Origin: an uncultured Prevotellaceae bacterium
Lineage (GTDB): Bacteria > Bacteroidota > Bacteroidia > Bacteroidales > Bacteroidaceae
DNA: 64,000 nt
Assembly (NCBI GenBank): GCA_900318995.1
Contig: ONMR01000006.1
Coordinates: 89,324 to 153,323, forward strand
Direction of reading: 5' to 3'
Below, piece after piece: positions 13,225-30,767 of this stretch (position 1 is the stretch's first letter; every line of letters starts with the position of its first letter). The position numbers and the translations under genes were made by a program. Below the pieces are notes generated by a model, which was not told the DNA's origin, searched no databases, and saw only the letters and a program-made list of their open reading frames with translations.

Positions 13225-13415
13225 GCAGGACCAATATATTTGGGACGATTAGCGGAGGGCGTTAAGCGGAGAGGCTTGGAAGATCCCGTTAAGAACGGCG
13301 CTTGTTTGACGAACGTTCGGCCCCGAAGGGGACGATAAGGAGGAGTTCGCCGTTTAGGGTCTGGAGAGTCTCGGAGTAGCCCGTAGCTGTTGTGTCCCAA
13401 ATATATTGGTCCTGC
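13225..13415. repeat. Structured inverted-repeat element, copy 1 of the shared-core family
   Basis: The 22-base arms at 13225-13246 and 13394-13415 are exact reverse complements, with GGGAC/GTCCC at the inner ends. The interior has GGCGTTAAGCG, GATCCCGTTAAGAACGGC, CTTGTTTGACGA, CCCC-gaa-GGGG, GGAGGAGTTCGCCGTTTAGG and CGGAGTAGCC. Each has a near-identical counterpart in the same order in the element at 30563-30757. AACGGC pairs with GCCGTT and GATCCC with GGGTC, giving a long interrupted stem. Together with the flanks it makes up the 314-base gap between relA and the sigma-54 regulator; no coding frame is supported there. Confidence 0.88.
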
Positions 13416-13472
13416 GGAGGTTAAAATAAACGAAATAATCTGCCAAAATTTCCGTATAAACGCTAAAGTAAG

Positions 13473-13480
13473 TATTTTTG
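13473..13480 (+). promoter_or_regulatory. Candidate -7 box upstream of the sigma-54-type regulator
   Basis: TATTTTTG matches TAnnTTTG and lies 20 bases before the ATG at 13501, with an AAGGA close to the start. The -33 half is not recognisable. Confidence 0.5.
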
Positions 13481-13500
13481 TCAGTCTATTAAGGATAACT

Positions 13501-14712
13501 ATGAATATAGAAGAGATACAGAGAATGAAACAGAGGTTCCGCATAATCGGAAACTCACCGGAGATGAACCGCGCCATAGACGTAGCCATACAGGTTGCGC
13601 CCACAGACCTGACGGTTCTGATAACAGGTGAGAGCGGAGCCGGAAAGGACGTATTCCCAAGAATAATACATGAGAACAGCCTCCGCAAGACCAAGAAGTT
13701 CCTTGCCGTTAACTGCGGAGCCATACCAGAAGGAACCATAGATTCGGAACTGTTCGGACATATCAAAGGTGCATTCACCAACGCCATCAATGACCGCAAC
13801 GGATATTTTGCCGAAGCCAACGGAGGAACCATATTCCTGGACGAGGTCGCCGAACTTCCCCTGGCCACCCAGGCCCGCCTGCTGAGAGTGCTTGAGTCCG
13901 GCGAATATATCAGAGTAGGTTCCAGCACCGTTGAGAAGACCGATGTCCGCATAGTAGCAGCCACCAACGTAGACCTTCAGAAAGCAATAGATCAGGGGCG
14001 TTTCCGTGAAGATCTGTACTATCGTCTCAGCACAATACCCATCAAGGTGCCGCCATTGCGTGAGCGTGGAACCGATGTACAGCTGCTGTTCCGTAAGTTC
14101 GCCGCTGATTGCGCCGAGAAGTACCATATGCCTGCAGTTCAGCTGTCGGAGGATGCAAAGCAGATGCTCATGACCTATCATTGGCCCGGCAACGTGCGTC
14201 AGCTCAAGAATATTACCGAGCAGATATCAATAATGGCTACTCAGAGAGTAATCACCGCCGATATGCTTCAGGATTACCTGCCTGACCGTCGTACCACAAT
14301 GGTGCCGATGCTTGCAGGAGGCCAGCGTCAGGAAAACTCATTTGAGAATGAACGCGAGATACTGTACAAGGTACTTTTTGACCTGCGTAGAGATGTAACA
14401 GACCTCAAGGCTCAGGTAAGCAGCCTGTCACAGGGACAGCCGCCCGTCCAGCAGCCTGTGCCCATATACACACCCGATGAAGGCGTTACCACGGTTCATT
14501 CTGTACCGTCCCGTAAGAATGCACAGCCTGATGATGACATTCAGGATACCGAAGTATATGTTGAAGAGACGCTCTCACTTGATGAAGTGGAGAAGGATAT
14601 GATTAAGCGCGCTTTGGCCAAGCATGGAGGCAAACGTCGTGGTGCGGCTGCCGATCTTAACATATCCGAGCGAACCCTGTACCGTAAAATAAAAGAGTAT
14701 AATCTGGAATGA
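13501..14712 (+). CDS. Sigma-54-interaction-domain transcriptional regulator, Fis-type HTH
   Basis: A 403-residue AAA+ enhancer-binding-protein homologue without an N-terminal receiver domain. Walker A is GESGAGKD, Walker B is GGTIFLDEVAELP, and the arginine-finger region is RFREDLYYRL. The loop normally GAFTGA reads GAFTNA. The C-terminus has a Fis-type helix-turn-helix (AAADLNISERTLYRKIKEY). A Gln/Pro-rich linker separates the two. The start is ATG 13501 (MNIEEIQRMKQRF), which has AAGGA upstream; the frame is open back to 13390 but that part lies in the repeat element. In Bacteroides-type genomes this gene heads the same string: lptE, a TPR-like gene, secG. Targets are unknown. Confidence 0.9.
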   Translation: MNIEEIQRMKQRFRIIGNSPEMNRAIDVAIQVAPTDLTVLITGESGAGKDVFPRIIHENSLRKTKKFLAVNCGAIPEGTIDSELFGHIKGAFTNAINDRNGYFAEANGGTIFLDEVAELPLATQARLLRVLESGEYIRVGSSTVEKTDVRIVAATNVDLQKAIDQGRFREDLYYRLSTIPIKVPPLRERGTDVQLLFRKFAADCAEKYHMPAVQLSEDAKQMLMTYHWPGNVRQLKNITEQISIMATQRVITADMLQDYLPDRRTTMVPMLAGGQRQENSFENEREILYKVLFDLRRDVTDLKAQVSSLSQGQPPVQQPVPIYTPDEGVTTVHSVPSRKNAQPDDDIQDTEVYVEETLSLDEVEKDMIKRALAKHGGKRRGAAADLNISERTLYRKIKEYNLE

Positions 14713-15227
14713 GACGCGGAATACTAAAACCAATCCTGATGATATTGCCTTTGGCAGTGCTGATGTCAGGGTGCTCCATATCTTATAAGCTTAATGGAGC
14801 GTCAATTGATTACAATACCATCAAGACCATCTCAATAGATGCTTTCAGCAACCGTGCAGCCTATCAGTGGGCCCCGATGGCTCCCATGTTCAATACATCA
14901 ATCAGTGACATCTATAACCGCCAGACCAAGCTGAGACAGGTAAAGCGCGACGGAGACCTTATGTTGTCGGGAGAGATAACGTCTTATGACCAGACCAACA
15001 AGTCAGTCTCTGCTGACGGTTACTCGTCAATGGTGCAGCTTAAAATGACAGTCAAGGTCAAGTTCACCAATAACAAGAACCACGATGATGACTTTGAGAA
15101 GGGCTTCACGTCAACCCGCGAGTACGATTCCTCACAGCAGCTCTCTTCGGTCCAGGAGGAACTTGTTCAGCAGATGATTGATGACATAGTGGACCAGGTG
15201 TTTAATGCAACCGTAGCCAATTGGTGA
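14709..15227 (+). CDS. lptE: LPS-assembly lipoprotein LptE
   Basis: A 172-residue lipoprotein with lipobox LMSGC (Cys22) followed by SISYKLNGASIDYNTIKTISI, typical of Bacteroidetes LptE. LptE plugs the LptD barrel in the outer membrane and helps insert lipopolysaccharide. The middle portion (RQTKLRQVKRDGDLMLSGEITSY) corresponds to the LptE beta-strand that meets LptD. The C-terminus is acidic and helical. The ATG overlaps the stop of the sigma-54 regulator by four bases (ATGA), so the two are co-translated. Identity rests on this lipoprotein pattern and on conserved order with secG; the family diverges quickly in sequence. Confidence 0.85.
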   Translation: MRRGILKPILMILPLAVLMSGCSISYKLNGASIDYNTIKTISIDAFSNRAAYQWAPMAPMFNTSISDIYNRQTKLRQVKRDGDLMLSGEITSYDQTNKSVSADGYSSMVQLKMTVKVKFTNNKNHDDDFEKGFTSTREYDSSQQLSSVQEELVQQMIDDIVDQVFNATVANW

Positions 15228-15697
15228 TGGGACAAAGCAAGGATGAACGCCTGATGTCCATTCTGGATACGTTTCTGGAGGGTCGTGAGGATGAGTTGTC
15301 GGGCATGACGGAGCTGGGCGCAGTACCGCTTGATTATGTCAATGATTATCTTGAGGCGGAATCAGACCTGAAAGAGAGTCGTGCCGATTCGGCTATCCGT
15401 TCCAAGTCGGAACAGTTGTTGGATGCGTTCCTGTCATCGGACTACAAGGCACCTTCATTCAGCCAGGCAGAAGAAGGCGACAGGGAGGTCCCTGACGCCG
15501 ATGATGACACGGAACAGCTTGATGAGTCGTGTTTCACCGAGACTTTGGCACGTATCTATCTTAAACAGCACAGATATGACCGGGCATTGGAAATTATTAA
15601 GTCTCTTTATTTGAATTTTCCGAATAAAAGCATTTACTTTGCGGACCAAATCCGGTATTTGGAAATATTGGTAAGGATAAATCAAAAATCAAAATAG
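15227..15697 (+). CDS. Small TPR-like protein of the lptE-secG locus
   Basis: A 156-residue cytoplasmic protein of unknown function. The first two thirds are acidic and probably disordered. The end, YLKQHRYDRALEIIKSLYLNFPNKSIYFADQIRYLE, resembles a single tetratricopeptide helix pair with the FP(N/K)KSxYFADQIRFLE ending found in Bacteroidetes genes at this locus. The start taken is ATG 15227, overlapping the lptE stop as TGATG; a TTG six bases earlier is the only alternative nearby. secG follows after three bases. A role linked to envelope assembly is suggested only by position. Confidence 0.75.
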   Translation: MGQSKDERLMSILDTFLEGREDELSGMTELGAVPLDYVNDYLEAESDLKESRADSAIRSKSEQLLDAFLSSDYKAPSFSQAEEGDREVPDADDDTEQLDESCFTETLARIYLKQHRYDRALEIIKSLYLNFPNKSIYFADQIRYLEILVRINQKSK

Positions 15698-15700
15698 AAA

Positions 15701-16048
15701 ATGTTTAAGGTTTTAATCATCATTATCGTGATTCTGGCACTCTTCCTGTGCTTTGTCGTTACAATCCAGAACTCAAAAGGCGGCGGATTGGCAGCAGGTT
15801 TTGCGTCATCAAACCAGATTATGGGTGTTCGCAAGACAACAGATATCCTTGAAAAGACCACTTGGACTCTGATGGCAAGCATAGCAGTACTGAGCATAAT
15901 TACAGCATATGTTGCCAAACCTAAGGCTGTTAACACAGGTTCTGTACTTGAGGGTGATGCAATTGAGAACCAGTACACCAATCCTGAGTCGTCAACAACA
16001 ACATTTGATGCTCCTCTTGAGATTGAGGATTTCTCAACTGAGGAATAA
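15701..16048 (+). CDS. secG: Preprotein translocase subunit SecG
   Basis: A 115-residue SecG, the small accessory subunit of the SecYEG channel in the inner membrane. Two transmembrane segments (about 2-22 and 54-73) flank the conserved cytoplasmic loop NSKGGGLAAGFASSNQIMGVRKTTDILEKTTW. The acidic C-terminal tail after residue 80 is longer than in enterobacteria but common in Bacteroidetes. It is the last gene of the regulator–lptE–TPR–secG string and is followed within about 20 bases by a strong hairpin with a T-run. Confidence 0.95.
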   Translation: MFKVLIIIIVILALFLCFVVTIQNSKGGGLAAGFASSNQIMGVRKTTDILEKTTWTLMASIAVLSIITAYVAKPKAVNTGSVLEGDAIENQYTNPESSTTTFDAPLEIEDFSTEE

Positions 16049-16068
16049 TTCACGAATTAGGTATATTT

Positions 16069-16102
16069 CGGGAGACATCCTAAGTGGATTGTCTCCCGTT
16101 TT
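16069..16102 (+). terminator. Rho-independent terminator after secG
   Basis: CGGGAGAC (16069-16076) pairs with GTCTCCCG (16091-16098). The stem continues inward as ATCC/GGAT around a five-base loop, and four T follow. It ends only 15 bases before the aminotransferase ATG at 16117, so it also controls read-through into that operon. Confidence 0.85.
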
Positions 16103-16116
16103 CATGAATAATCGAT

Positions 16117-17160
16117 ATGAAAACATACGCTTTCCCGGGTATAATAGAGGATGATATCCTACGGATTTCTGCAGGCCAGATTCCATATATGAGAACCTCC
16201 TGGTTCTCGGGCGTAATGAAGGAGAACGAGCGTATGCTCCTTGATGCAATAGGCTGTCAGGGCGGCAGGGTGATGTTTTTTACGTCATCAGGTACAGCAG
16301 CAATGGAGTCGGTCGTTCAGAATTACGTTGCAGCAAAGGGATCGGCATTCATCATAGATGGAGGCACGTTCGGACACCGTTGGGTGCAGCTCTGCGAGTA
16401 TCACGGCATTGAGCATGAGGTCATGCAGATACCTTTTGCCGAAGATATTGACTATGAGGCTCTGGAACAGCGCGTGGCTTATTCGCGACCTGCAGTATTC
16501 CTTTGTCAGCATCATGAGACATCATCGGGACAACTGTTTGATATAAGGCGCATATCGGACATCTGCCACAAGTTCGGGACAAGCCTCGTAGTGGATGTGA
16601 TAAGCTCTTTTCTTGCCGAAGAACTTGATATGAACGGCATGGGCATAGACGTGGCAGTTACAAGCACTCAAAAAGGCCTGAACCTGCCACCCGGTGCAGC
16701 GCTGGTCTTTTTGGCGGAGAATGCCCTGAAGGTTGATTTTCGCCATAACAATTACTATCTTGACTTCCAGGATAACCTTAAGAACCTGGAGCGCGGTCAG
16801 ACTCCATTCAGTCCCGCAACCACTCTGTTCATGCAGGTCAATGAACGTATGCACCGCAACTTGGAGAAGGGTATTGGTAATGTCATTGCCGCTACCCGTG
16901 AAAAGGCTCTTTATTTCCGCCGTCTTTGCGCCAAATACGGTTGGGAGATACCGGCACATAATCCCGCCAATGCCGTAACGGGTTTCTTTGTACATAAGAA
17001 TGCCGATATTCTGTGTGATGAACTGCAGAAACACGGAATATTCATAATGCCCAGCGGCAAGCCTCATTTCTTCCGAGTCTCGCATATGGGCAGCGATACA
17101 TATCAGGATCTCGATGATCTGGCCGGACTTATCAGTGAAATAGAAAACCTACCCAGATGA
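16117..17160 (+). CDS. Class V PLP-dependent aminotransferase
   Basis: A 347-residue fold-type I PLP enzyme of the class V group (alanine-glyoxylate, serine-pyruvate and 2-aminoethylphosphonate transaminase relatives). FFTSSGTAAMES (about 50-61) binds the cofactor phosphate, VVDVISSF includes the PLP-ring aspartate, and TSTQKGLNLPPG holds the Schiff-base lysine. Its neighbours (a TagB/F-like transferase, LicD and a cytidylyltransferase) suggest that it supplies an amino-alcohol or aminophosphonate head group, or converts an oxo-precursor to an amine. No PEP mutase is present, so an aminoethylphosphonate route is not supported locally. It overlaps the next gene by four bases and no separate promoter is evident. 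Confidence 0.85.
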   Translation: MKTYAFPGIIEDDILRISAGQIPYMRTSWFSGVMKENERMLLDAIGCQGGRVMFFTSSGTAAMESVVQNYVAAKGSAFIIDGGTFGHRWVQLCEYHGIEHEVMQIPFAEDIDYEALEQRVAYSRPAVFLCQHHETSSGQLFDIRRISDICHKFGTSLVVDVISSFLAEELDMNGMGIDVAVTSTQKGLNLPPGAALVFLAENALKVDFRHNNYYLDFQDNLKNLERGQTPFSPATTLFMQVNERMHRNLEKGIGNVIAATREKALYFRRLCAKYGWEIPAHNPANAVTGFFVHKNADILCDELQKHGIFIMPSGKPHFFRVSHMGSDTYQDLDDLAGLISEIENLPR

Positions 17161-18212
17161 GGATTGTACTGTTCTGTGAGAACCGATATGCGATAGACAT
17201 ACTGCAACCTTTGTATGATGAGGCGGTGGCTCAGAAATGCCACGAAGTGCTGTGGTATATCCATACTCCAAAAATTAAAAACTACAAACCCGACGACAGC
17301 ATCCGTTGGACATCAAGCATGCAGGAACTGTATGATTTCAGTCCCGAAGCTGTATTTGTGCCGGGCAACATTGTTCCGTATTATCTGCCGGGCGTCAAGA
17401 TCCAGGTGTTCCACGGATATGCTGCCGAAAAGAAGGATCATTGGATAATCCGCCGTTATTTTGATACATATTTTACACAGGGTCCGTATTTTACGTCTCA
17501 TTTTGAGGCATCAGCCCTTAAGTACAAGGACTTTGAGGTTCGCGAGACGGGTTGGACCAAGCAGGACTGGATATTCCGTCACCTGCATGATTTTGATGAT
17601 GAGAAACAGCGCCTGCTAAAGCAATACGGCAAGAGCAGAGTTGTGCTCTATGCCCCTACGTTCTCGCCCAAACTCACATCGCTTCCCTATCTAAAGCCCG
17701 CTCTCGAGCAGCTTTGCGCCCAGAGAGACATACTGCTTATCCTCAAGTTCCATCCGCTTACAGCAAAGGAGTGGGCCGATGAGTACAGGGAGTGGGCGTC
17801 GGACCGCAATGATGCCATATATATAGAGGCATCAGAGAATGTAACCAGATATCAGATAATGAGTGACGTGATGATAAGCGATACTTCATCATCAGTATAT
17901 GAGTTCCTGCTGCTGGACAGGCCTGTGGTAACTTTCCGCACTATAGCCAAGGATATCTATTGGGAGAATATTGATGATCCGGACCAGTTGACAGACGCAT
18001 TTGACAGAGCGCTGAATGATCCTGATGCCGCGGTCAAACGTCACTGGATAGTGGATAATTATGATCCGCATATGGACGGAATGTGCTGCCAACGTATGAT
18101 TGCCGAGGCTCAGGATTACATAGACCGTCATGGAGTTCCTTCAAAGCGTCGGCTCAATCTTTGGCGCAAGTATACAAGTATAAAGACATTTGGAAAGATC
18201 AAAAGAGACTGA
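17157..18212 (+). CDS. CDP-glycerol glycerophosphotransferase-like protein (TagB/TagF family)
   Basis: A 351-residue GT-B-like transferase. Family features are VFHGYAAEKKDHW (about 82-94, donor-side histidine), VVLYAPTFSPKLTSLPYL, ILKFHPLT and SDTSSSVYEFLLLDRPVV. These match the Glyphos_transf domain of TagB/TagF, which move glycerol-phosphate or ribitol-phosphate from a CDP-alcohol onto a glycan. The protein is close to the size of the catalytic domain alone and has no transmembrane segment. Wall teichoic acid is not expected in this phylum, so the acceptor is more likely a capsule or LPS sugar. It overlaps the aminotransferase (ATGA) and the LicD gene (TGATG). The cytidylyltransferase two genes on could make its donor. 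Confidence 0.85.
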   Translation: MRIVLFCENRYAIDILQPLYDEAVAQKCHEVLWYIHTPKIKNYKPDDSIRWTSSMQELYDFSPEAVFVPGNIVPYYLPGVKIQVFHGYAAEKKDHWIIRRYFDTYFTQGPYFTSHFEASALKYKDFEVRETGWTKQDWIFRHLHDFDDEKQRLLKQYGKSRVVLYAPTFSPKLTSLPYLKPALEQLCAQRDILLILKFHPLTAKEWADEYREWASDRNDAIYIEASENVTRYQIMSDVMISDTSSSVYEFLLLDRPVVTFRTIAKDIYWENIDDPDQLTDAFDRALNDPDAAVKRHWIVDNYDPHMDGMCCQRMIAEAQDYIDRHGVPSKRRLNLWRKYTSIKTFGKIKRD

Positions 18213-19102
18213 TGACATCGTATCAACCATATAATTATGATTTAAGGGAATTTCAGCTGAGGAGTGTATGTTTGCTGGATGCGATTGACAAGGTTTGCAA
18301 GGAACACGACATTACCTATTATGTGATTGCCGGAACACTTCTGGGAGCTGTACGCCATAAAGGCTTTATCCCATGGGATGATGACCTGGACATAGCACTG
18401 ATGCGCAGGGATTATGACCTGCTCATTGAACATGCATCCGAGTGGCTTCCTGAGCCTTTTTCTATAGTTGCTTACAATAATGACCCTGATTATCCCAAGT
18501 ATTTTGCAAAACTTGAGGATAAAAGCACTACTTTAGTGGAGCGTTTCTATCTGGGATACGTAGGGGGAATATATATGGATATCTTCCCGTTGGATTCAGT
18601 ACCTGACAACAAGTTGCTCAGGGCATGGCATTACTACCGTTTCAACCTGAAGAGACGTATGCTCTATCTGGTATACAGGGATCCGTATAAGCACGGCAAG
18701 GGGTTAGGCTCACTGATGCTGCGTCTTATTCAGAAACTTGTGTCCAAAGAGAAACTGCACAGAAGGGCACAGAGGGTCCTTACAGAATTTGAAGGAAAGA
18801 ATAACTGCAATTATGTGATGACCCATGATGACGGATTCAAGGCATATCACAAGTCAGTTTTCGGGAAACCGGTCTCCTGTGAATTCGAGGGTCATACATT
18901 CTGTGCACCCGAGCATCCTGAAGGATTCCTGTCGGTCCTTTATGGAGATGATTACATGACTCCTCCTCCGGAAGGAAAAAGGAACTCGCATTTCCATGAC
19001 TATTGCGATCTGAAGAACGGATATGAGGGCGTTGATATCAATGAGCTGAAGGCTCATTATGAGGGAATTGACAGTTTGAAAAGAAAAGAAGAACGGTTAT
19101 GA
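18212..19102 (+). CDS. LicD family phosphotransferase
   Basis: A 296-residue LicD protein. The signature VIAGTLLGAVRHKGFIPWDDDLDIALMRRDY (about residues 40-70) contains the nucleotidyltransferase-fold G-T/S-LLGAxR and DDDxD metal-binding residues. LicD proteins move phosphocholine or a similar phospho-group from a CDP-activated donor to a surface sugar. The start is ATG 18212, overlapping the previous stop as TGATG; a longer frame back to 18083 is a read-through of the upstream gene. It overlaps the cytidylyltransferase by four bases. No choline kinase or choline transporter lies nearby, so the head group need not be choline. Confidence 0.9.
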   Translation: MTSYQPYNYDLREFQLRSVCLLDAIDKVCKEHDITYYVIAGTLLGAVRHKGFIPWDDDLDIALMRRDYDLLIEHASEWLPEPFSIVAYNNDPDYPKYFAKLEDKSTTLVERFYLGYVGGIYMDIFPLDSVPDNKLLRAWHYYRFNLKRRMLYLVYRDPYKHGKGLGSLMLRLIQKLVSKEKLHRRAQRVLTEFEGKNNCNYVMTHDDGFKAYHKSVFGKPVSCEFEGHTFCAPEHPEGFLSVLYGDDYMTPPPEGKRNSHFHDYCDLKNGYEGVDINELKAHYEGIDSLKRKEERL

Positions 19103-19581
19103 AAAGAGTATTTACATCGGGAAGCTTTGACCTGTTTCATATAGGCCATCTCAATATTCTGGAGAAATCGGCCGCATTGGGCGATGAACTCATAGTCGGT
19201 GTCAGTACCGATGAACTTATAGAGGAATACAAGGGAATGAAACCTATCATACCCTATGAGCAGCGTGCCCGTATAGTGGCCTCTATCAAGTGTGTGACAA
19301 AGGTCGTCAAGCAGACCAAACTGACCGAGATTGCCCAGCTTCAGCGTGAGAATATTGATATCGTAACCATCGGTGATGACTGGAAAGGCAAGTATCTTGA
19401 AGGGCTGGAGTGGATGAAAAATCAGCCGGGCAAGGAGGTTGTATATTTTCCTTATACCCCGGGCGTGAGCACGACCAAAATCAAAAGTGATATCATCAAA
19501 AGCGCGAGCGATATCATTGCTGCCGCTCTATCACGTGAGGAATATATTGACAAGAACTGGAAAGAGGACGAACGTAAATGA
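19099..19581 (+). CDS. TagD-like CTP:alcohol-phosphate cytidylyltransferase
   Basis: A 160-residue member of the nucleotidyltransferase superfamily that joins CTP to glycerol-3-phosphate, phosphoethanolamine or a related substrate. FTSGSFDLFHIGHLNIL (about 5-21) includes the HxGH motif (H14, H17), and PGVSTTKIKSDI near residue 130 is the TagD-type RTxGISTT element in altered form (YTPGVSTTK). The 160-residue length is longer than TagD (about 130), with a basic tail. It ends the operon and probably makes the CDP-linked donor used by LicD and the TagB/F-like protein. A bidirectional terminator follows 20 bases later. Confidence 0.88.
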   Translation: MKRVFTSGSFDLFHIGHLNILEKSAALGDELIVGVSTDELIEEYKGMKPIIPYEQRARIVASIKCVTKVVKQTKLTEIAQLQRENIDIVTIGDDWKGKYLEGLEWMKNQPGKEVVYFPYTPGVSTTKIKSDIIKSASDIIAAALSREEYIDKNWKEDERK

Positions 19582-19601
19582 CAGTTCCATATAATAAGCA
19601 G

Positions 19602-19627
19602 AAAGGGCGGCTTTGAAGGCCGCCTTT
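19602..19627. terminator. Bidirectional terminator
   Basis: GGCGGC pairs with GCCGCC across a seven-base loop, extended by AA/TT on the outside and with T-rich sequence on both strands. It sits between the convergent cytidylyltransferase (ends 19581) and ROK gene (ends 19634). Confidence 0.7.
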
Positions 19628-19633
19628 ACTGTT

Positions 19634-20596: not shown

Positions 20597-20606
20597 TGCT
20601 GATTAA

Positions 20607-21998: not shown

Positions 21999-22024
21999 AT
22001 GTTTAGGTCAGTATATTTTTATTG

Positions 22025-22055
22025 TTGCAAATGTAAGTAAAATAGCCTAAATTTG
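22025..22055 (+). promoter_or_regulatory. Promoter of transketolase
   Basis: TTG (22025-22027), 20 bases, then TAAATTTG (22048-22055): an exact match to the Bacteroidetes TTG-N19-21-TAnnTTTG pattern. The ATG is at 22118, so the leader is about 55 bases. It overlaps the opposing phosphatase promoter over almost its full length. Confidence 0.75.
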
Positions 22056-22059
22056 CAAA
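22028..22059 (-). promoter_or_regulatory. Promoter of the histidine phosphatase operon
   Basis: Minus-strand TTTG (22056-22059), 20 bases, TACATTTG (22028-22035). The -7 box of this promoter abuts the -33 box of the transketolase promoter and vice versa, so two polymerases could not bind at once. Confidence 0.7.
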
Positions 22060-22117
22060 CTATCACCATGACAGTATGGTGTCTGTTTTTTTGAAATACA
22101 ATCAAAACATTATAACA

Positions 22118-24133: not shown

Positions 24134-24147
24134 TTTCAAAAATGAAC

Positions 24148-24210
24148 GTTGGCGTTGGCCTTGGCTTTAGCTACCATTCGGTGCGTAGCGAAGCCAACGC
24201 CAATGCCAAC
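24148..24210. repeat. Imperfect inverted repeat between tkt and rpiB
   Basis: Left arm 24148-24174 and right arm 24185-24210 pair with only a few mismatches. Both are built from short repeats of the kind TTGGCGTTGG/CCAACGCCAA. The element lies wholly between the transketolase stop and the rpiB start, and could act as a processing or attenuation hairpin. It has no GGGAC/GTCCC motif and no core like the elements at 13225 and 30563. Confidence 0.75.
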
Positions 24211-24221
24211 GCCAAAGTAAT

Positions 24222-24650
24222 ATGATAGGAATAGCCAGTGACCACGCTGCTTTCCCGCTAAAGCAGTTTGTGATAGAATACTTGAAGGAGAAGGGGCTGG
24301 AGTTCAAGGACTACGGCACCTATACTCCCGACAGTTGCAACTACGCCGACTACGGCCACGCATTGGCCCGCGGCATAGAGAACGGTGAGGTAGAGAAGGG
24401 TATAGCCATGTGCGGCAGCGGAGAGGGTATCTCCATGACCCTGAACAAGCATCAGGGCATCCGCGCCGGCCTGTGCTGGATCCCCGAGATTGCCCACCTT
24501 ATCCGTCAGCACAACGATGCCAACGTCCTGGTAATGCCCGGCCGTTTCATCGACACCGACATGGCCCGCAAGATCATGGACGAATACCTGAACACCCCAT
24601 TTGAGGGCGGTCGTCATCAGGCTCGCGTGGACAGCATCCCCGTCCGCTGA
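24222..24650 (+). CDS. rpiB: Ribose-5-phosphate isomerase B
   Basis: A 142-residue RpiB interconverting ribose 5-phosphate and ribulose 5-phosphate. The N-terminus MIGIASDHAAFPLKQ contains the conserved D-H-A of the active site. YADYGHALARGIENGE and MCGSGEGISMTLNKHQGIRAGLC hold the catalytic cysteine and the phosphate-binding GSGxG loop. HNDANVLVMPGRF is also characteristic. It probably shares the transketolase transcript through the intervening hairpin. A strong terminator follows 12 bases after the stop. Confidence 0.95.
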   Translation: MIGIASDHAAFPLKQFVIEYLKEKGLEFKDYGTYTPDSCNYADYGHALARGIENGEVEKGIAMCGSGEGISMTLNKHQGIRAGLCWIPEIAHLIRQHNDANVLVMPGRFIDTDMARKIMDEYLNTPFEGGRHQARVDSIPVR

Positions 24651-24662
24651 TTAAAATCAGAA

Positions 24663-24693
24663 AAAAAAGCCTTGCGATGTGCAAGGCTTTTTT
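24663..24693. terminator. Bidirectional rho-independent terminator
   Basis: AAAAAAGCCTTGC (24663-24675) and GCAAGGCTTTTTT (24681-24693) form a 13-bp perfect stem with a five-base loop, with T-runs on both strands. It serves rpiB and the convergent FMN-binding lipoprotein gene, whose stop codon lies in the right arm. Confidence 0.9.
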
Positions 24694-25075
24694 ATTTGTG
24701 CTTGGTGTAGTAGTCGTAGGCCGCTTTTATGTTTTCTCGCACGGATTTGCTGCTGATGGTTGCGCCCGATACGCAATCGACCGTGGCGTAATCCTTGAAC
24801 TTAACGTCCTTGAACTTGGGCAGCATATATTTTTTTACGCTGTCAAAGAATCGCGGAGTCTCATGGTTGGGTAGCGCCTCGACACTGACAATCCTGTTTT
24901 TCCTGACTGTTACCGTTATAGGTGTGGTGCCATGATAACCTCTTGCATTACAAATAGTAGTGGTGTTTATAGTATACACTTTACCTTTGGAACTCATTAC
25001 TCCGTCATCGGTTTCCTGACTGGAACATCCGACCAATAGGAATAGTGCTGTCGCAATACTTATTATTCCTTTCAT
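24692..25075 (-). CDS. FMN-binding domain lipoprotein
   Basis: A 127-residue exported lipoprotein (lipobox LLVGC) with a single FMN-binding domain of the RnfG/NqrC type. TVDCVSGATISSKSV near the C-terminus carries the SGATxSS motif at which FMN is attached to the threonine through a phosphoester. TVRKNRIVSVEALPNHETPRF is the typical preceding strand pair. It is probably an extracytoplasmic electron carrier, but no reductase partner is adjacent. The start is ATG 25073-25075 (MKGIISIATALF), which gives a proper signal peptide; the longer frame to 25099 would run through the promoter region. Confidence 0.85.
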   Translation of the reverse strand: MKGIISIATALFLLVGCSSQETDDGVMSSKGKVYTINTTTICNARGYHGTTPITVTVRKNRIVSVEALPNHETPRFFDSVKKYMLPKFKDVKFKDYATVDCVSGATISSKSVRENIKAAYDYYTKHK

Positions 25076-25086
25076 ACCATTGTTTT

Positions 25087-25118
25087 TTGTCCTTTGCAAA
25101 TTTACTTATTTATCTTTG
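25087..25118 (+). promoter_or_regulatory. Promoter of the metallophosphoesterase gene
   Basis: TTG (25087-25089), 21 bases, TATCTTTG (25111-25118). The box ends five bases before the ATG at 25124, so the transcript would be essentially leaderless. On the minus strand TAAATTTG (25097-25104) is a matching -7 box for the divergent FMN-binding lipoprotein. Confidence 0.55.
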
Positions 25119-25123
25119 TACCT

Positions 25124-26206
25124 ATGAATAAAAGTATAGCATTATTGTTTGTAGGCCTATTGCTGGGCCTTACCATATACGTAGGCTGGCGGCTGTGGAG
25201 GATTACACCGGGTATGTGGGCCGTAAAGGCCGGAGTGCTGCTGGCGTTCCTGGCATGGATGGCTCTGTTCTTTGTCAGTTTTGTCCGTATAGAGAGGCTG
25301 CCGCTGGGCTTGGCTCAGACAGTATATAATGTGGGTAACCCCTGGCTCATATTCTTTCTGTATCTGCTGCTGGCGTTCCTGTTTGCCCGTCTTGGGCAGA
25401 TATGCCGCTTACTCCCGGCCGATTTCCTAAAGAGCAACCCGGAAGGGTTCTGCACTATAATTGGAGGCGTGGCGCTGCTCATGCTCATAGGCGGGCTGCA
25501 TTATCACCATAAGTATCGCGAGGAACTTACTGTTCATATCGAAAAGCCGTTGGAAAAGCCGCTCAAGGTGGTACTGATAAGTGACCTGCACCTGGGTTAT
25601 CATAACCGGCGTGCTGAGTTGGCCCGATGGGTGGACATAATCAATGCAGAGAATCCGGACCTTATACTCACTGCCGGCGATGTGGTGGACCGCAGTATCC
25701 GCCCGGTGATTGAGGGTAATTACGCTCAGGAGTTTCATCGGCTTAAAGCACCCGTGTGGACCGTGCTGGGCAATCATGACTACTACAGTAACGAGCCTCT
25801 GGTGGAGAAGTTTTTCAAGGATGCCGGCATTAGGTTGCTGCGTGATGAATCCGCTCAGTTTGGCAGCCTTACCGTGATAGGCCGTGATGACCGCACCAAC
25901 CCGCGTCGCAAACCGCTCAGTGCACTTACAGACAGCATCAGCGGATTCTCCATACTGCTGGACCATCAGCCTTATCATCTGGAGGAGGCTGAGCAGGCCG
26001 GCATAGATTTCCAGTTCAGCGGTCACACCCACCGCGGCCAGGTATGGCCAATCTCATGGGTGACTGATGCCATGTACGAGAAATCCTGGGGCCACCTCCA
26101 GCGCGGCACCACCCGCTACTACATCACCTCGGGCATCGGAATCTGGGGCGCCCGCATCCGCATCGGCACCCGCTCCGAATACCTGGTCCTCACAATCGCA
26201 AAATAG
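25124..26206 (+). CDS. Membrane-anchored metallophosphoesterase (calcineurin-like)
   Basis: A 360-residue protein. About four transmembrane segments fill residues 1-135, followed by a calcineurin-like phosphoesterase domain. The dimetal motifs are SDLHLGYH, TAGDVVDR, LGNHDYY and SGHTHRGQVWP, the standard D-x-H, GD, GNHD, H and GHTH set. Relatives (YkuE/YaeI type) hydrolyse phosphodiesters of UDP-sugars or lipids. The start is ATG 25124 (MNKSIALLF). The TAG stop lies inside the left arm of a 33-bp perfect inverted repeat shared with the convergent DUF4153 gene. Confidence 0.9.
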   Translation: MNKSIALLFVGLLLGLTIYVGWRLWRITPGMWAVKAGVLLAFLAWMALFFVSFVRIERLPLGLAQTVYNVGNPWLIFFLYLLLAFLFARLGQICRLLPADFLKSNPEGFCTIIGGVALLMLIGGLHYHHKYREELTVHIEKPLEKPLKVVLISDLHLGYHNRRAELARWVDIINAENPDLILTAGDVVDRSIRPVIEGNYAQEFHRLKAPVWTVLGNHDYYSNEPLVEKFFKDAGIRLLRDESAQFGSLTVIGRDDRTNPRRKPLSALTDSISGFSILLDHQPYHLEEAEQAGIDFQFSGHTHRGQVWPISWVTDAMYEKSWGHLQRGTTRYYITSGIGIWGARIRIGTRSEYLVLTIAK

Positions 26207-26282
26207 TACAAAAGGGGACAGTCCCCAATTGTATCATTTTCAAAAATAGTACAATTGGGGACTGTCCCCTTTTGTACTATTT
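26201..26282. repeat. 33-bp perfect inverted repeat spanning two convergent stop codons
   Basis: Arms 26201-26233 and 26250-26282 are exact reverse complements around a 16-base loop. Each arm also has its own internal palindrome, GGGGACAGTCCCC or GGGGACTGTCCCC. The metallophosphoesterase stop (26204-26206) lies inside the left arm, and the DUF4153 stop begins at the last base of the right arm. It probably acts as a bidirectional terminator, but is longer and more regular than needed for that. Confidence 0.9.
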
Positions 26283-28150
26283 TACCAGAATAGCGGGCCG
26301 GCAATGGTAAAGTAACCCTTTTTGCCGCTGTAGTATAGCTGGAATGTGTTGAGGTAGAGCGTAACACGGGCCGGGGCGTCGGCATTATTACCCACAAGTG
26401 TGCCGATGTAACTGATTATGTGATTGATATCACCTTTTGCGATATTCTCTGTTGTCATCTCTTTCCCCAATGCGCGTAGCTGCTGCATTGGAATGCGGAA
26501 CTCATACATCAGTTCTTTGTTGTCCCATGAAACCGGCAGTTGCACGGTCAGAATATCCTCCTTTATGGAGTTCTGGTCAATATCGACCGTAGTCTGGTAC
26601 AGGCTCATACTACTGGCATTTGCGGGCAGACTGAAACTTGTCTCTCCCAATATGTGGCGATAACGGTTGATATTCAATGTGCTGTCAGCCTCCTGGTCCT
26701 GAACAGCCTCCGGAATACGTCCCGTCAACACGCCGGTTTCAATAAAGGCCGATACCGACTTGCGTGAAAACTGGCTCTTAAGATAGTCCATGCGGCTGTC
26801 AAGCCGGTGCGATACATCGGCATCAAGCGTGCTGATGAACTTGCCGTAAGTATCATCGTCCATAGCCGTGCCATCCCATCCGTTAGACTTAAGGGTGGAG
26901 TCTATCTTTGCTGTCAGGCTCTTTCTGACCGATGTAGATACGTTAACCGGGAGTAGGGTGAGCAGAGCAAAAGTCAGTACAAGCGATACCGGAATCCACA
27001 GGATTCCCGCATTCCGTTTCAGGATCAATACCACACAAACCGCGTAGCACCAAAGGTTGAACGCCACCAGATACACGCGCAATATGGTAATCCCGTAGTC
27101 CGATATGCGCCGCGCTATACCAATGCTCATAAGCAACAACAGCGGCAGCATCAGTATGGGCATCCGGTGCGTGATTATCCGCACGGCTTTCCTGTTCCAG
27201 CCCGATGCGCTCTTATCGGCCTTGTCACGATAGGGATAGACCATCATGAACAGTATTACGAATGCCAGCATTGATGCTGTAACTAACCACGATACCCAGC
27301 CGTCGGGCAGCTGCCATGTGAACAATATCTTGGCGGCATAGCAGTAGAGTGTTATAAAGTAGGCTATGGCAATGGGCGTGAACAGCCTGGTTACGGAATT
27401 AACCAGCAGTCGGGATATCTCCATCGGCTCTGCGTCATGTTTCTGCTCTCCTCCGGGCACACCTTGTATAAGCAGCACCGGAGCCAGCAAACATAGGCAG
27501 ATTATGGCAATGTTGCTGTAGCAGTGTGAATTTACAGACACGCCGAACAGTTTCTCAATACCCACTACCAGCAATTCCAATCCGCCGCACACAATGCCGC
27601 TTACAATGAAAGCTGTGCAGACAGCCCCTATGGAATGCAGGCTGAAGTTCCAGAAAGCCACATCGGTCCTGTCGCTGAAGAATGAAAGCACAAGCAGCGA
27701 AAGCGTGAGCGTAGCAATAAGAGCCACAACCACATAGGTATAAGGTGCATAACCCAGCATGTCATAATTGCGCATCAGCAGAACGCTCACCCCGATCCAT
27801 GCTATATGAATCAGGGCCGATGCCAGCCGGTATCCCCATTGGCCTCTGTGCTCCTCAAGCCATAGTGAAAGGCTCAGTGAAAGCGCAATACCCGTGGCAG
27901 GATACCATATCATAAAGAACTTCCACTCCTTGCTGATACCGTGATAGCCCTTCCAGTCAAGAATCATCATGCACATGGTAAGCGCTATGGCAAACGCCAC
28001 CGTAAGCGGGAACCTCTGAATCCCGCGCCATACGGTATCGGCCAAACCTTTAATCTTTTCCTTTAAGCTCCTCATATATCTAAGTCTTTTAATCAATGAA
28101 TGCCTGTTACTATTATCAGCTTGCTTATGCTCGTTGTTATCTGTCCCCAT
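26282..28150 (-). CDS. DUF4153 family integral membrane protein
   Basis: A 622-residue protein with about a dozen hydrophobic segments over residues 45-400 and a soluble C-terminal domain of about 220 residues. The pattern of paired helices, NFSLHSIGAVCTAFIVSGIVCGGLELLVVGIEKLFG and the later ITLYCYAAKILFTWQLPDGWVS, resembles Bacteroidetes DUF4153 proteins, whose function is not known. It is the last gene of a minus-strand group that also contains a winged-helix regulator. Its stop is at the edge of a perfect inverted repeat. Confidence 0.8.
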   Translation of the reverse strand: MGTDNNEHKQADNSNRHSLIKRLRYMRSLKEKIKGLADTVWRGIQRFPLTVAFAIALTMCMMILDWKGYHGISKEWKFFMIWYPATGIALSLSLSLWLEEHRGQWGYRLASALIHIAWIGVSVLLMRNYDMLGYAPYTYVVVALIATLTLSLLVLSFFSDRTDVAFWNFSLHSIGAVCTAFIVSGIVCGGLELLVVGIEKLFGVSVNSHCYSNIAIICLCLLAPVLLIQGVPGGEQKHDAEPMEISRLLVNSVTRLFTPIAIAYFITLYCYAAKILFTWQLPDGWVSWLVTASMLAFVILFMMVYPYRDKADKSASGWNRKAVRIITHRMPILMLPLLLLMSIGIARRISDYGITILRVYLVAFNLWCYAVCVVLILKRNAGILWIPVSLVLTFALLTLLPVNVSTSVRKSLTAKIDSTLKSNGWDGTAMDDDTYGKFISTLDADVSHRLDSRMDYLKSQFSRKSVSAFIETGVLTGRIPEAVQDQEADSTLNINRYRHILGETSFSLPANASSMSLYQTTVDIDQNSIKEDILTVQLPVSWDNKELMYEFRIPMQQLRALGKEMTTENIAKGDINHIISYIGTLVGNNADAPARVTLYLNTFQLYYSGKKGYFTIAGPLFW

Positions 28151-28224
28151 TTCAAATCAGCGAATACGGTTTTATATCGATTCAATGTAGCTCAAAGACC
28201 ATTCCTTCTGATGCTTTGGTATTT

Positions 28225-28701
28225 TTAATCCTTATTGAAATTGGACGGTTTACACAATAGGATTAAGAATATCATTCCTGTCAATGCGTTCATTCCTACC
28301 AATGGATAAACAAATGCATCTGTAAAATCCGGTGCAGAGCCGTCCATATTTGAGAGGGCACGGTCAAACAAAGCCAGAAAGGTTCCAATGCCAAGTGTTG
28401 CAGGTATTATGAGTAGCCATGGGTTTATTCCGGCGTCACGCAGGCGCCGTATCGTAACAGTGAGTGAAGGCAGGAACATCACGAGCCAGAATAGCCCCAA
28501 AAGGACAATTGTTGCGTGAAACGCTCCTTCAGCCACAGGATGTCCTGCCGTATTGCCAAACAGAAATGCAATTACAGCCAGCACGCAAACAACCGGAACC
28601 GATACAGCCAGCATAGCGAGTACCCACGTCCAAAACTCCCTGCGGTCAGCTCTGCCCCTGAACTGAAAGTACCGCCTAAACGTATCTGCTAAAGCTTTCA
28701 T
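28225..28701 (-). CDS. DUF805 family membrane protein
   Basis: A 158-residue membrane protein with four hydrophobic segments. It opens with a conserved aromatic/basic cytoplasmic end (FRRYFQFRGRADRREFWTW), the signature of DUF805 (usually YxxFxGRxxRxEYW). TVTIRRLRDAGINPW is the second family hallmark. Molecular function is unknown; members often accompany envelope or stress genes. It lies between the DUF4153 gene and an unrecognised membrane protein, 25 bases from the latter, in the same direction. Confidence 0.88.
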   Translation of the reverse strand: MKALADTFRRYFQFRGRADRREFWTWVLAMLAVSVPVVCVLAVIAFLFGNTAGHPVAEGAFHATIVLLGLFWLVMFLPSLTVTIRRLRDAGINPWLLIIPATLGIGTFLALFDRALSNMDGSAPDFTDAFVYPLVGMNALTGMIFLILLCKPSNFNKD

Positions 28702-28726
28702 ATCGTCTTTATTATACCATTAAACA

Positions 28727-29503
28727 TTATCTCATCCACCCCTCTACCTTATAAACCTTTTCAGAAAGCTTCTGCTTGGTGTGAGTGGCGCTGTCTTGGA
28801 ACCAGACCTCTATTCTTGCCAGGTAATACTCTTCCCATACACCTTCGTAGATACTGAATTCTTTCGGGCTTGTTATCTTACCCTTGTCGTCTTGCGTGAT
28901 TTCTTGTAAGGTCCTTTCCCTGATGCTCTTGGATGACAGTTGGATGTTCTCGGTTATTTCATAACATTCCAGCCAGATTTCTCCATTGTCAATATCCTGA
29001 GGGACGTAGAATGTATATTGATAGATTCCTCCCTGACCTCCGTTTTTAATCTGCAGCCAAGTGTCTCTGTTTCCGGATTCATCACCCCGTTCCGTGTAGG
29101 CCGATGTCAGAGGCTCATTGTATTCAACATTCTCAGGTATAGGATGTTTCCTGCCGAAATCATCCAATCGGTCACCGCCGAACATCCACCAGACACCAAT
29201 TGAAAGAATATTCCATAAGCAGATGGCCACAGCAATTACCATCAATGCCAGATGCCCGGAGATGGCTTTTCCCTGCTTTTTAATTATGTAATAGATCCAA
29301 AGGCACAGGTTGGCAATTATTAGAATTATACTGATAATTGCTATCGGATCCCTGAAGTTTACAACCCTGATGACACTGGCCGGAACATCTGTCCCTACGT
29401 TGTGGCATTTCCTGATGATAAAAAACTGAATTATCTGCAGTACAATTAGAATCAATGGCCAAAGCCACCATTTAAGCAGAATATTATTTATTGATTTTCG
29501 CAT
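28727..29503 (-). CDS. Unrecognised membrane protein with C-terminal soluble domain
   Basis: A 258-residue protein I do not recognise. Three hydrophobic segments (about 12-30, 52-72 and 86-107) are followed by a soluble domain of about 140 residues rich in Glu, Tyr and Trp. That domain has beta-strand-like stretches (GGIYQYTFYVPQ, YYLARIEVWFQD) and ends KVEGWMR. No catalytic motif is visible. It begins eight bases after the winged-helix regulator gene, so it is in the same operon and probably under its control. Confidence 0.7.
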   Translation of the reverse strand: MRKSINNILLKWWLWPLILIVLQIIQFFIIRKCHNVGTDVPASVIRVVNFRDPIAIISIILIIANLCLWIYYIIKKQGKAISGHLALMVIAVAICLWNILSIGVWWMFGGDRLDDFGRKHPIPENVEYNEPLTSAYTERGDESGNRDTWLQIKNGGQGGIYQYTFYVPQDIDNGEIWLECYEITENIQLSSKSIRERTLQEITQDDKGKITSPKEFSIYEGVWEEYYLARIEVWFQDSATHTKQKLSEKVYKVEGWMR

Positions 29504-29511
29504 GACCTGTT

Positions 29512-29805
29512 CTATTTCAAACCAAGTAGTGAACTGAGTGCCTCAATATGTGCACTGAATGCTTTCCGGCCAACATCAGTCACAGAGTATGAGGTGTTGG
29601 GCTTGCGGCCGATGAACTGCTTTTGGGTCTCAATGTACCCCAGTTCCTCCAGAGCCCGGATATGGCTTGCCAGATTCCCGTCCGATACGCCCAACATCCC
29701 CTTGAGGGTATTGAAATCAGACTGCCCGGATGCGGTCAGCACCGACATTATGCCCAACCTAACGCGGCTCTCAAATGCCTTGTCAAGACTCTCAATAGCG
29801 GTCAT
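29512..29805 (-). CDS. Winged-helix transcriptional regulator (HTH_34-like)
   Basis: A 97-residue protein that is essentially one winged helix-turn-helix domain. ESRVRLGIMSVLTASGQSDFNTLKGMLGVSDGNLASHIRALEELGYIETQKQFIGRKPNTSYSVTDVGRKAF matches the MarR/ArsR-like family whose members start (L/F)DxxxESRVRLGIMS and carry a GRxPxTxYxxTxxG wing. It lies six bases downstream of a membrane protein gene whose promoter region holds the palindrome TACTTTG-N5-CAAAGTA, its most likely operator. Autorepression of this membrane-protein operon is inferred from position and symmetry. Confidence 0.9.
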   Translation of the reverse strand: MTAIESLDKAFESRVRLGIMSVLTASGQSDFNTLKGMLGVSDGNLASHIRALEELGYIETQKQFIGRKPNTSYSVTDVGRKAFSAHIEALSSLLGLK

Positions 29806-29811
29806 TGGACA

Positions 29812-30456
29812 TCAATGTTTGTGGTCAAACCAGATCTTGAACCAGATACCCCAGATAAGGTGCAGAATGCAGAATCCTATTGTCCAGAACATCATTCCGA
29901 AAGATGAAAAAGCCAGTGCGGCAACCCCGATCACAATTTCAGCGTATCCCAGATACTTGGTAATGGAAATCTTAAATGCGATTGGAGATATCAGCACCAC
30001 TGCCAGACCGTAAAACACAAGCATAAAGCCAGGTATCAAGTTCCATAAACTGTTGAATATTGGAGTAAGGCAGGCCAATCCACCTGTGACCATAGCCGTG
30101 AAGAAGTTGCCCAGTAAGCGCCGTGTGCCGGCATCGAACGAAAAATCCAGCCCTTCACGGCTTGCCCTGTGCTTTGACATAAGCCAAACTGTCATGAATG
30201 CTGCACAGAAAACGGCCGCGCAGATAATTGCTACTATAAGGAATGTATCCCAGTCCGGTTGACGAATAGGATTGACGGTAGCGCCCCAAAGCGGACTTAC
30301 AGTCCCATAAAGAACCAGACTGACAGCCACTGCACCGAGAAGTGCCCAAACTGCCACTACAATTCCTGCCGTTCCCTCCAGAAACAATACCTTCTGTGAG
30401 CGCTCCATCATATTCCTGATATCACTCAGTGTATCCCTAATCTCCTGTTCCTTCAT
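29812..30456 (-). CDS. Multi-pass membrane protein, first gene of the regulator operon
   Basis: A 214-residue membrane protein of unknown function. A charged N-terminal helix (MKEQEIRDTLSDIRNMMERSQKV) precedes about six hydrophobic segments from residue 27 to the end. The sequence before the first segment and LEGTAGIVVAVWALLGA resemble Bacteroidetes proteins routinely encoded just before HTH_34 regulators. The gene heads the operon and has the palindromic candidate operator 31 bases upstream of its start. A sensory or transport role coupled to the regulator is possible but not shown. Confidence 0.75.
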   Translation of the reverse strand: MKEQEIRDTLSDIRNMMERSQKVLFLEGTAGIVVAVWALLGAVAVSLVLYGTVSPLWGATVNPIRQPDWDTFLIVAIICAAVFCAAFMTVWLMSKHRASREGLDFSFDAGTRRLLGNFFTAMVTGGLACLTPIFNSLWNLIPGFMLVFYGLAVVLISPIAFKISITKYLGYAEIVIGVAALAFSSFGMMFWTIGFCILHLIWGIWFKIWFDHKH

Positions 30457-30487
30457 ATTTTAGCCTATATATTTGTGGTTCTAAAAG

Positions 30488-30506
30488 TACTTTGCGCTAC
30501 AAAGTA
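30488..30506 (-). promoter_or_regulatory. Candidate operator TACTTTG-N5-CAAAGTA
   Basis: A perfect 7-bp inverted repeat around CGCTA, located 31-50 bases upstream of the membrane protein/regulator operon. On the minus strand the repeat half TACTTTG overlaps a -7-like TTTACTTTG, so a bound dimer would block polymerase. It is the natural site for the winged-helix regulator encoded at 29512-29805. The rest of the 361-base gap 30457-30817 holds the element at 30563 and a terminator. Confidence 0.65.
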
Positions 30507-30562
30507 AAAGCAAACAAACTAAACCACCAAACAAATTCGCAGAAAACTTTCTTTTTGCAGTA

Positions 30563-30757
30563 GCCGAACTATTCCCTTTGGGGACCATCAGTGAAGTGGC
30601 GTTAAGCGTAGCCCTCCGAAGGATCCCGTTAAGAACGGCACTTGTCTGACGACGATTAGACCCCGTAGGGGGCTAAGATGGAGGAGTTCGCCGTTTAGGG
30701 TCCGTAGGTGGGCGGAGTAGCCACGGAACGTTGCGTCCCCAAAGGGAATAGTTCGGC
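30563..30757. repeat. Structured inverted-repeat element, copy 2 of the shared-core family
   Basis: Arms 30563-30585 and 30735-30757 are exact 23-base reverse complements, with GGGGAC/GTCCCC at the inner ends. The interior repeats the blocks of the 13225 element in order: GGCGTTAAGCG, GATCCCGTTAAGAACGGC, CTTGTCTGACGA, CCCC-gta-GGGG, GGAGGAGTTCGCCGTTTAGG and CGGAGTAGCC. The arms, in contrast, are unlike those of the 13225 element except for GGGAC. Variable bases lie mainly in loops or as changes on both sides of stems. Confidence 0.88.
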
Positions 30758-30767
30758 GGTGTAAAAA

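Follow-up and report, generated by a model that had tools for sequence, protein, structure and literature searches.

A dispersed palindromic element with a conserved core

The stretch of DNA analysed here (hereafter the window) comprises 64,000 nucleotides (nt) of contig ONMR01000006.1 (positions 89,324 to 153,323, forward strand) from assembly GCA_900318995.1, the 2.5-Mb draft genome (42 contigs) of an uncultured Prevotellaceae bacterium of the Bacteroidales. It contains two copies, both on the + strand, of a palindromic element with a structured interior, hereafter the core-A element. Element 1 (13225..13415) consists of two P1 arms (13225-13246 and 13394-13415) around a core formed by helices P2-P6, and element 2 (30563..30757) has its P1 arms at 30563-30585 and 30735-30757 on either side of the core. 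The arms are 100% complementary over 22 nt in element 1 and 23 nt in element 2, as stated in an initial annotation of the sequence, and the cores share ungapped repeats of 74 nt (77%) and 61 nt (75%). Both elements fold much better than dinucleotide shuffles (z of -6.1 for element 1 and -8.2 for element 2), with none of 200 shuffles as good. Every core block named in the initial annotation was found in both elements, in the same order. In element 1, the conserved block GATCCCGTTAAGAACGGC (13282..13299, +) forms the 5' strand of P3/P4, the conserved block GGAGGAGTTCGCCGTTTAGG (13339..13358, +) forms the 3' strand of P5/P4, and the covarying apical hairpin of P6, GTTCGG-CCCC-GAA-GGGG-ACGAT, lies at 13315..13336 (+). 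The pairing described between AACGGC and GCCGTT was recovered, as was that between GATCCC and GGGTC; here the pairing of GATCC with GGGTC includes a U-G wobble, not a bulged base, and this wobble is conserved in all 70 elements of the alignment presented below. The description of the arms as mutually unrelated requires qualification: their sequences do differ, yet both follow a loose family consensus. A family-conserved 5' loop, TTCCCATTTGCAGGA, lies directly outside P1 (13210..13224, +; alignment of 15 copies from the same genome), and homology between copies most commonly starts 6-20 nt upstream of the arm.

The two window elements are members of one dispersed family. A core-block search of the source genome allowing up to three mismatches identified 17 places (one for the reversed-pattern control), a search with the second core block allowing at most one mismatch identified 18 (control, 0), and covariance model R1, built from 38 of 66 trimmed sequences, gave 21 matches, including those at G000:C21:102564-102722 (element 1) and G000:C21:119903-120063 (element 2). 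These numbers argue against a chance resemblance: the element is multicopy and, as the initial annotation had it, dispersed.

Distribution of the family

R1 matches were obtained in 31 of the 37 genomes of the genus analysed, including the source genome, with 1 to 49 matches per positive genome (range across all genomes, 0-49). In a draw of 198 genomes from the order, the family was detected in four (source genome included), and in a draw of 395 genomes from the phylum it was detected in three with R1 and five with the broader model R2, again including the source genome; these counts are lower bounds, because strict filters were applied and just 14 or 7 candidates were scored per genome. Diverged homologs were identified in seven genomes of other genera (G110, G214, G125, G624, G234, G537 and G141), one of which, G624, belongs to the same family as the source genome. 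They retain the nested hairpin and a shared apical motif, roughly CTGTYTGAG..stem..GAGTT, and the G141 homolog retains even GGCGTAAAGCGGAG and CGGAGTAGCCC. A joint alignment of 27 sequences including the distant homologs had two-sided changes in 242 cells, versus 76 after shuffling; this alignment was fitted to the structure, and sliding the partner by one column lowered pairing from 91% to 40-41%. Single copies of the distant homologs folded well in G110 (z -7.7), G537 (-5.1), G234 (-3.8) and G141 (-3.3), and less so in G214 (-2.1), whereas those of G125 and G624 barely exceeded shuffled sequences (-1.1 and -0.1). G214, a genome of another family, has copies arranged in tandem, about 218 nt apart (L229 4686-5066, L230 1-280 and L227 9422-9736), and some reach contig ends. 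Sequences ending in TTTTGGTTACTTTT..AAAAGTAACC, which we take to be common in Bacteroidota, stand in some form beside the copies of G624, G234 and G141.

Named records with an exact-pattern match were, among the matches listed, mostly metagenome-assembled genomes (MAGs) of Bacteroidales or Bacteroidaceae from ruminants. No Rfam family (release 15, gathering thresholds) matched the window, five loci, four distant-homolog loci or four further loci; at a relaxed threshold, L229 4600-5150 was still without a match, and the neighbourhood of element 1 gave two sub-threshold ones (10.5-11 bits), neither of them convincing. No description of the family was found in searches of the open-licence PMC literature, a scope outside which most subscription papers and preprints lie. 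The family is thus a dispersed repeat undescribed in the sources searched.

A conserved fold with an RNA-like core

A single-block search gave 126 matches, some by chance, the 3' half being detectable in 104. A stricter search retained 106 elements, 100 with arms and six without (three of these near contig ends). Arms were located via a perfect seed of 7-14 nt, which biases the sample towards intact arms; 92 of the 100 formed the arm-pairing set, 75 passed a length and arm filter, and 70 of these 75 made up the main alignment (L055, L075, L094, L099 and L105 were omitted). RNase P, aligned on its correct strand by the same method in 30 congeners (of 35 genomes with a match), served as a control.

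RNAalifold predicted 59 pairs for the 70 elements, 42 of them with a compensated two-sided change. The fold is one long nested hairpin, P1-P6, in which 95.9% of cells were paired, versus 80.1% in shuffled alignments. Two-sided changes occupied 624 cells, versus 154 in the shuffles (none of 500 as high), and affected 43 pairs in this controlled count; sliding the partner by one column reduced pairing to 45-49%. Covariation, as expected of a structured RNA and suggested as a check in the initial annotation, is therefore strong over the whole hairpin, and its view of a conserved structure with changing sequence is borne out: the variable arms stay complementary and the core covaries. An internal G.A or A.G mismatch is frequent in P6 and swaps between copies, and some copies (e.g. 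L013, L012 and L054) have an outer stem, P0, which is complementary and variable. A string resembling group I introns, TCAGAGACTA, seen in some P0 stems, varies between copies and was discounted. GTAG occurs inside the core-A element; REPIN-type sequences would be expected to carry a conserved GTAG or GGAG specifically at the base of a hairpin of 20-40 nt.

Because a G-U pair reads as an A-C mismatch on the complementary strand, the ratio between the two indicates which strand folds as RNA. On the strand presented here, the inner helices had 202 G-U pairs and 18 A-C mismatches, similar to the 253 and 17 of RNase P. The core thus behaves like RNA, with G-U far above A-C, and this pattern suggests that its fold is probably kept by selection, as + strand RNA.

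Changes in the arm pairs

The arms change in a different manner. P1 had 313 two-sided Watson-Crick changes, 29 G-U pairs and 10 A-C mismatches in the 70-element alignment, versus 283 two-sided changes and 202 G-U pairs in the inner helices (262 and 67 after restriction to varying pairs whose commonest form is Watson-Crick) and 192 and 253, respectively, in RNase P. Transversions (186) outnumbered transitions (127) among the two-sided changes of P1, counted as alignment cells. In RNase P pairs with 80-95% identity, two-sided changes accounted for 0.30-0.52 of the sum of two-sided changes and G-U pairs, with transversions far below transitions. At orthologous sites, with each locus family represented by a single pair (comparable arms were available for 11 of the 14 families), there were 20 two-sided changes (8 transitions and 12 transversions), 8 G-U pairs and 3 mismatches, and all 28 comparable pairs gave 80 two-sided changes, 22 G-U pairs, 5 mismatches and 4 others. 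Given the few G-U intermediates and the many transversional double changes relative to RNase P, stepwise replacement, the usual route, does not seem to be the main mode of arm evolution. Of the 5' arms of 92 elements, 82 were distinct, and 92 of 100 elements retained an arm 18 nt or longer, although most copies, apart from the near-identical ones described below, are much more diverged.

Orthologous sites, orientation and spread

The orthologous set consisted of 49 pairs in which both elements were required to lie between matched flanks; L039/L102, L049/L135, L052/L059 and L057/L102 were excluded, as another copy of the same record had been taken in them, and this hardly altered the results. 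In 40 orthologous pairs, arm identity was 0.762, versus 0.605 in 1500 other pairs (p = 3e-8), and core identity was 0.798 versus 0.778 (p = 0.033). Arms are therefore clearly linked to their locus, and cores barely so. Core identity was 0.806 within one genome and 0.774 for non-orthologous cores of different genomes, an excess driven mainly by the two genomes contributing most pairs, JAFZKA (0.838) and the source genome (0.800), several others being near or below 0.774.

At the site of element 1 (locus 1), the arms of the window copy were found unchanged in L140, with a diverged core, and in L143, with an interrupted core. In L141, only the tips of the arms are left, fused at a direct repeat of 8 nt, AATATATT, and L148 has been reduced to a mini-hairpin. 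Other arms are present in L142 and L145, and L144 has another structured core (core B) in a P0 stem, the 3' strand of which resembles that of L142. Several congeners have no element at this site. At the site of element 2 (locus 2), the A-rich junction is empty in three congeners (L180, L183 and L187) and filled in L171, L172 and L189, the last of which has extra copies of the 3' arm. Comparison of the empty sites with the window, L171 and L172 delimits the inserted stretch approximately to 30547..30762 (+), its ends being blurred by poly-A, in which no target-site duplication is definable. The comparison of orthologous sites proposed in the initial annotation thus yielded element-free congeners at both loci.

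Orientation was opposite in eight of the 49 pairs, seven of which involve four loci, L123, L056, L057 and L116 (the other is L113/L130). In L123 and L056, the element is reversed within arms about 95% alike, and an inversion of the interior is therefore likely; the arms differ in L057 and L116, for which an independent insertion is as likely as a flip. L057 has three nested palindromes around a single core, the outermost being of the GGGACGGTTC type. Whole elements 95-97% identical were found at different sites, in different genomes (L172/L013 and L002/L056) or in one genome (L099/L105), so entire elements, arms included, spread or underwent conversion at a fairly recent date. The similarly close pair L005/L094 is probably orthologous, as the match extends into the flank.

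Several other rearrangements were observed. Tandem extra copies of the 3' arm and part of P2, each slightly different, follow the element in L112/L142, L150, L151, L042, L179 and L189. The 3' core strand of L009, L020, L021, L054, L095 and L143 carries a closely similar insert of ~40 nt with a GGCTACGC-GCA-GCGTAGCC hairpin, which is missing from the element of L062, at the same site as L054. Another multicopy insert, starting with TTCCTATGTTTGAAATCCC, enters the element directly after P6 in L033, L098 and L120, the records of which end within the insert. Finally, L157 (G008:C12 near 99000), which is orthologous to an element site but has no core A, contains tandem units of ~100 nt, with CCTTAGGG..CCCTAAGG palindromes and GCGATATTCCGTATT.

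Insertion sequences and candidate enzymes

Ends of insertion sequences (IS) of the IS110 type interrupt the apical stem of the element, always at the same point, in L006, L017, L025, L029, L170, L175, L179 (the last three at locus 2), L146 and L149 (both at locus 1). The insertion lies in the apical strand, around CGAC/YGTTAG, and the left non-coding end of the IS contains GTTTAACGAC, also present in the target. A full copy, lying in another sequence at about L297 285-1944, encodes a transposase matching PF01548 (E = 1.7e-21) and PF02371 (E = 2.5e-14). The C-terminus of this transposase was matched in three of 37 genomes, an undercount, as contigs break inside the IS. L006 and L017 were considered as possible autonomous parents and rejected, their extra part being the IS110 element. 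A 46-residue fragment on its own had no Pfam match, and the insert of L107 and its neighbours were examined as open reading frames (ORFs) only.

Genes of the type encoding REP-associated tyrosine transposases (RAYTs; PF01797; REP, repetitive extragenic palindromic) were present in 23 of the 37 genus genomes. PF01797 was not found in G007, which has 49 copies of the element and is 97% complete, or in G051 (24 copies), G009 (21), G020 (11) and G044 (11), drafts being incomplete, and none of 30 RAYT loci (about 3 kb each) had a core-A match. A phage origin was rejected, as element 1 was unmatched in phage records and three pattern matches in viral contigs lacked the rest of the element. A plasmid search with one distant homolog gave no match.

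Neighbouring palindromes, core B and gene context

At 10833..11007 of the window, a related composite combines a REP-like palindrome with a P0-type stem that encloses the different structured core, core B. Core B has the form GGGAGGGGCCCG..stem..GTGGGAGGGATAG and occupies core-A sites in the congeners L144 and L134. Simple GGGGAC/GGGGTC palindromes with variable outer sequence are repeated in the genus, including at 26200-26283 of the window, and lie beside RAYT-type transposase genes in L240, L241, L244, L255 and L263. Several of 13 inspected RAYT loci have simple GGGGAC or GGGGTC palindromes, the flanks being right for about half of these loci (ORFs were picked on the + strand only).

Four of 55 copies with a 1.5-kb flank overlap an ORF of at least 100 amino acids by more than 60 nt. 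The orientations of the flanking genes were evenly distributed (11/17/12/13 for 53 copies with genes on both sides). With no orientation bias, the gene context lends no support to the suggestion of a gene-linked structured RNA domesticated between genes; as a multicopy, intergenic, imperfect and non-coding palindrome, the element fits the description of a dispersed repeat of the ERIC/BOX kind.

Interpretation

The interpretation that we favour, with a probability of about 0.5, is a palindromic repeat of the REP/ERIC kind that is non-autonomous and located mostly between genes, its core being RNA-like and its arms kept complementary largely by homogenisation of the inverted repeat through template switching. 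In single-stranded DNA during replication, the element would form a hairpin, and polymerase template switching would copy one arm onto the other, generating paired, often transversional changes; it could also flip the interior, and slippage could account for deletions and 3'-arm duplications. Such replication fits the transversion-rich paired changes, the reversal of the interior, the deletion in L141 and the tandem 3'-arm copies. The core would still need selection on its fold, because its internal loops are conserved, not homogenised; among copies, it may be homogenised by ectopic conversion or renewed insertion, and the occupation of new sites would require an enzyme acting in trans. Template switching between the arms of inverted repeats is reported to homogenise the arms and invert the spacers, with a mention of earlier bacterial data in which it favoured transversions (PMC8604942), and to create, and possibly help maintain, RNA stems, its role in the maintenance of short stems being described as less clear and the strongest evidence as circumstantial (PMC8794818). 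Regeneration of the arms by copying, one of the alternatives in the initial annotation, is thus favoured for the arms, and its proposal of a non-autonomous mobile element is kept as a non-autonomous repeat, a classical form with terminal inverted repeats and a matching transposase being unlikely, as the termini vary.

Several points weigh against this interpretation. Alignment cells are not independent events, so Fisher values overstate significance, and draft assemblies, to which the single contig of G624 is an exception, supplied nearly all of the sequences. The 28 orthologous pairs had similar numbers of transitions (41) and transversions (39), with no transversion excess; the clustering of arm changes (6 adjacent, versus 3.1 expected; p = 0.054) is only suggestive; and G-U pairs still exceed A-C mismatches in P1 (29 to 10), as expected under RNA selection. 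Arms were too different for comparison in 11 of 39 orthologous pairs, and arm differences at the same site could also stem from the exchange of an entire element for another whose arms are perfect, which is the principal alternative. The rRNA study cited above reports enrichment only for multiple paired changes and not for those with loop inversion (PMC8794818). No trans-acting mover was identified, RAYT (PF01797) being the only candidate enzyme compared with copy number.

Other explanations account for parts of these data. An ordinary long RNA stem, in a transcribed structured RNA with many paralogs whose arms are kept paired by stepwise RNA selection alone, would explain the strong covariation of the whole fold, the preference for G-U over A-C, pronounced in the core and mild in P1, and the one-sided G-U changes at orthologous sites (22 in 28 pairs). 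We nevertheless consider it rather doubtful, as P1 has far fewer G-U intermediates than either the core or RNase P, transversions exceed transitions in P1 and equal them at orthologous pairs, RNase P being dominated by transitions, and the element is missing from given sites in congeners, with no orientation bias relative to genes. An equally tentative reading separates the element into two loosely coupled layers, in which template switching would rewrite locus-bound arms pairwise, and RNA-like cores (A and B), interchangeable and homogenised genome-wide, would use palindromes as sockets in either orientation; the core, which has relatives in at least seven other genera of the phylum, could then be an RNA-dependent mobile element, a bacterial analogue of short interspersed elements, moved in trans. 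The odds of this reading are slightly reduced by the whole elements up to 97% identical at different sites, which show arms travelling with cores.

Enzymatic explanations in which the element is recognised by a known type of transposase are less probable still. Spread as a REPIN-like element, through RAYT action on single-stranded hairpins, is consistent with dispersed intergenic palindromes, with the PF01797 genes of the genus and with nesting inside palindromes of the type found beside RAYT genes; it is improbable given the lack of a PF01797 match in the 49-copy genome and four others with 11-24 copies, and the RAYT loci devoid of core A, so the suggested membership of the REPIN class was not upheld. 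The size, terminal inverted repeats, intergenic dispersal and empty sites would suit a classical miniature inverted-repeat transposable element (MITE), a deletion derivative of an IS with ends recognised by a DDE transposase. However, so many distinct 5' arms are unlikely to be the binding site of one enzyme, no target-site duplication can be defined at locus 2, and no autonomous relative was noticed, though none was systematically searched for, making this explanation highly improbable. Mobilisation by, or derivation from, the IS110 system is the least credible: the fixed point of interruption, the IS110-family transposase of the full copy and the GTTTAACGAC shared with the target would fit, but the junctions cut the element into two parts, as expected of a target site, the fold is retained in homologs from other families, and the transposase C-terminus was matched in so few genomes (an undercount).

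With template-switched arms and a selected core as the preferred interpretation, the family is new and evolves unusually, and is not a proven new mechanism. It offers a natural setting in which to ask how perfect pairing persists in long RNA or DNA stems, with up to dozens of stems of the 22-nt class per genome in many congeners and, in the same molecule, a core evolving more like ordinary RNA as a built-in control. The repeat, which Rfam lacks, also has relatives across several families of the phylum, is a recurrent IS110 target and, as several contigs end at copies, is perhaps a cause of MAG fragmentation.

Comparison with known systems

The ERIC, BOX and Correia-type repeats are non-coding, intergenic, imperfect palindromes of roughly 100-300 bp. 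The family resembles these prokaryotic MITEs, by description, in being multicopy, intergenic, imperfectly palindromic and without coding capacity, but differs in that copy-variable arms pair perfectly, the core covaries pair by pair and the host phylum is another. ERIC copy numbers are given as tens to hundreds (PMC10969869). With REP and REPIN sequences and their RAYTs it shares dispersed intergenic palindromes, restriction to a clade, many copies and disruption by IS elements; unlike them, it is about 190-300 nt long, versus 20-40 nt for REP (PMC3733652), and has a conserved RNA-like core, variable arms and no link to the presence of RAYT. As with IS621, the target of an IS110 element is here a multicopy palindromic repeat (144 of 173 mapped IS621 insertion sites lay in REP elements; PMC11208160), but the target family is another one, and guide-target pairing here is a sequence resemblance only. 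The family also resembles hairpins maintained by template switching, the predicted footprints of which (PMC8794818 and PMC8604942) are several simultaneous paired changes, homogenised arms and inverted spacers; those studies concern rRNA stems and yeast genes, whereas the arms here are about 22 nt long, the reversed part is about 150 nt, and the element is multicopy.

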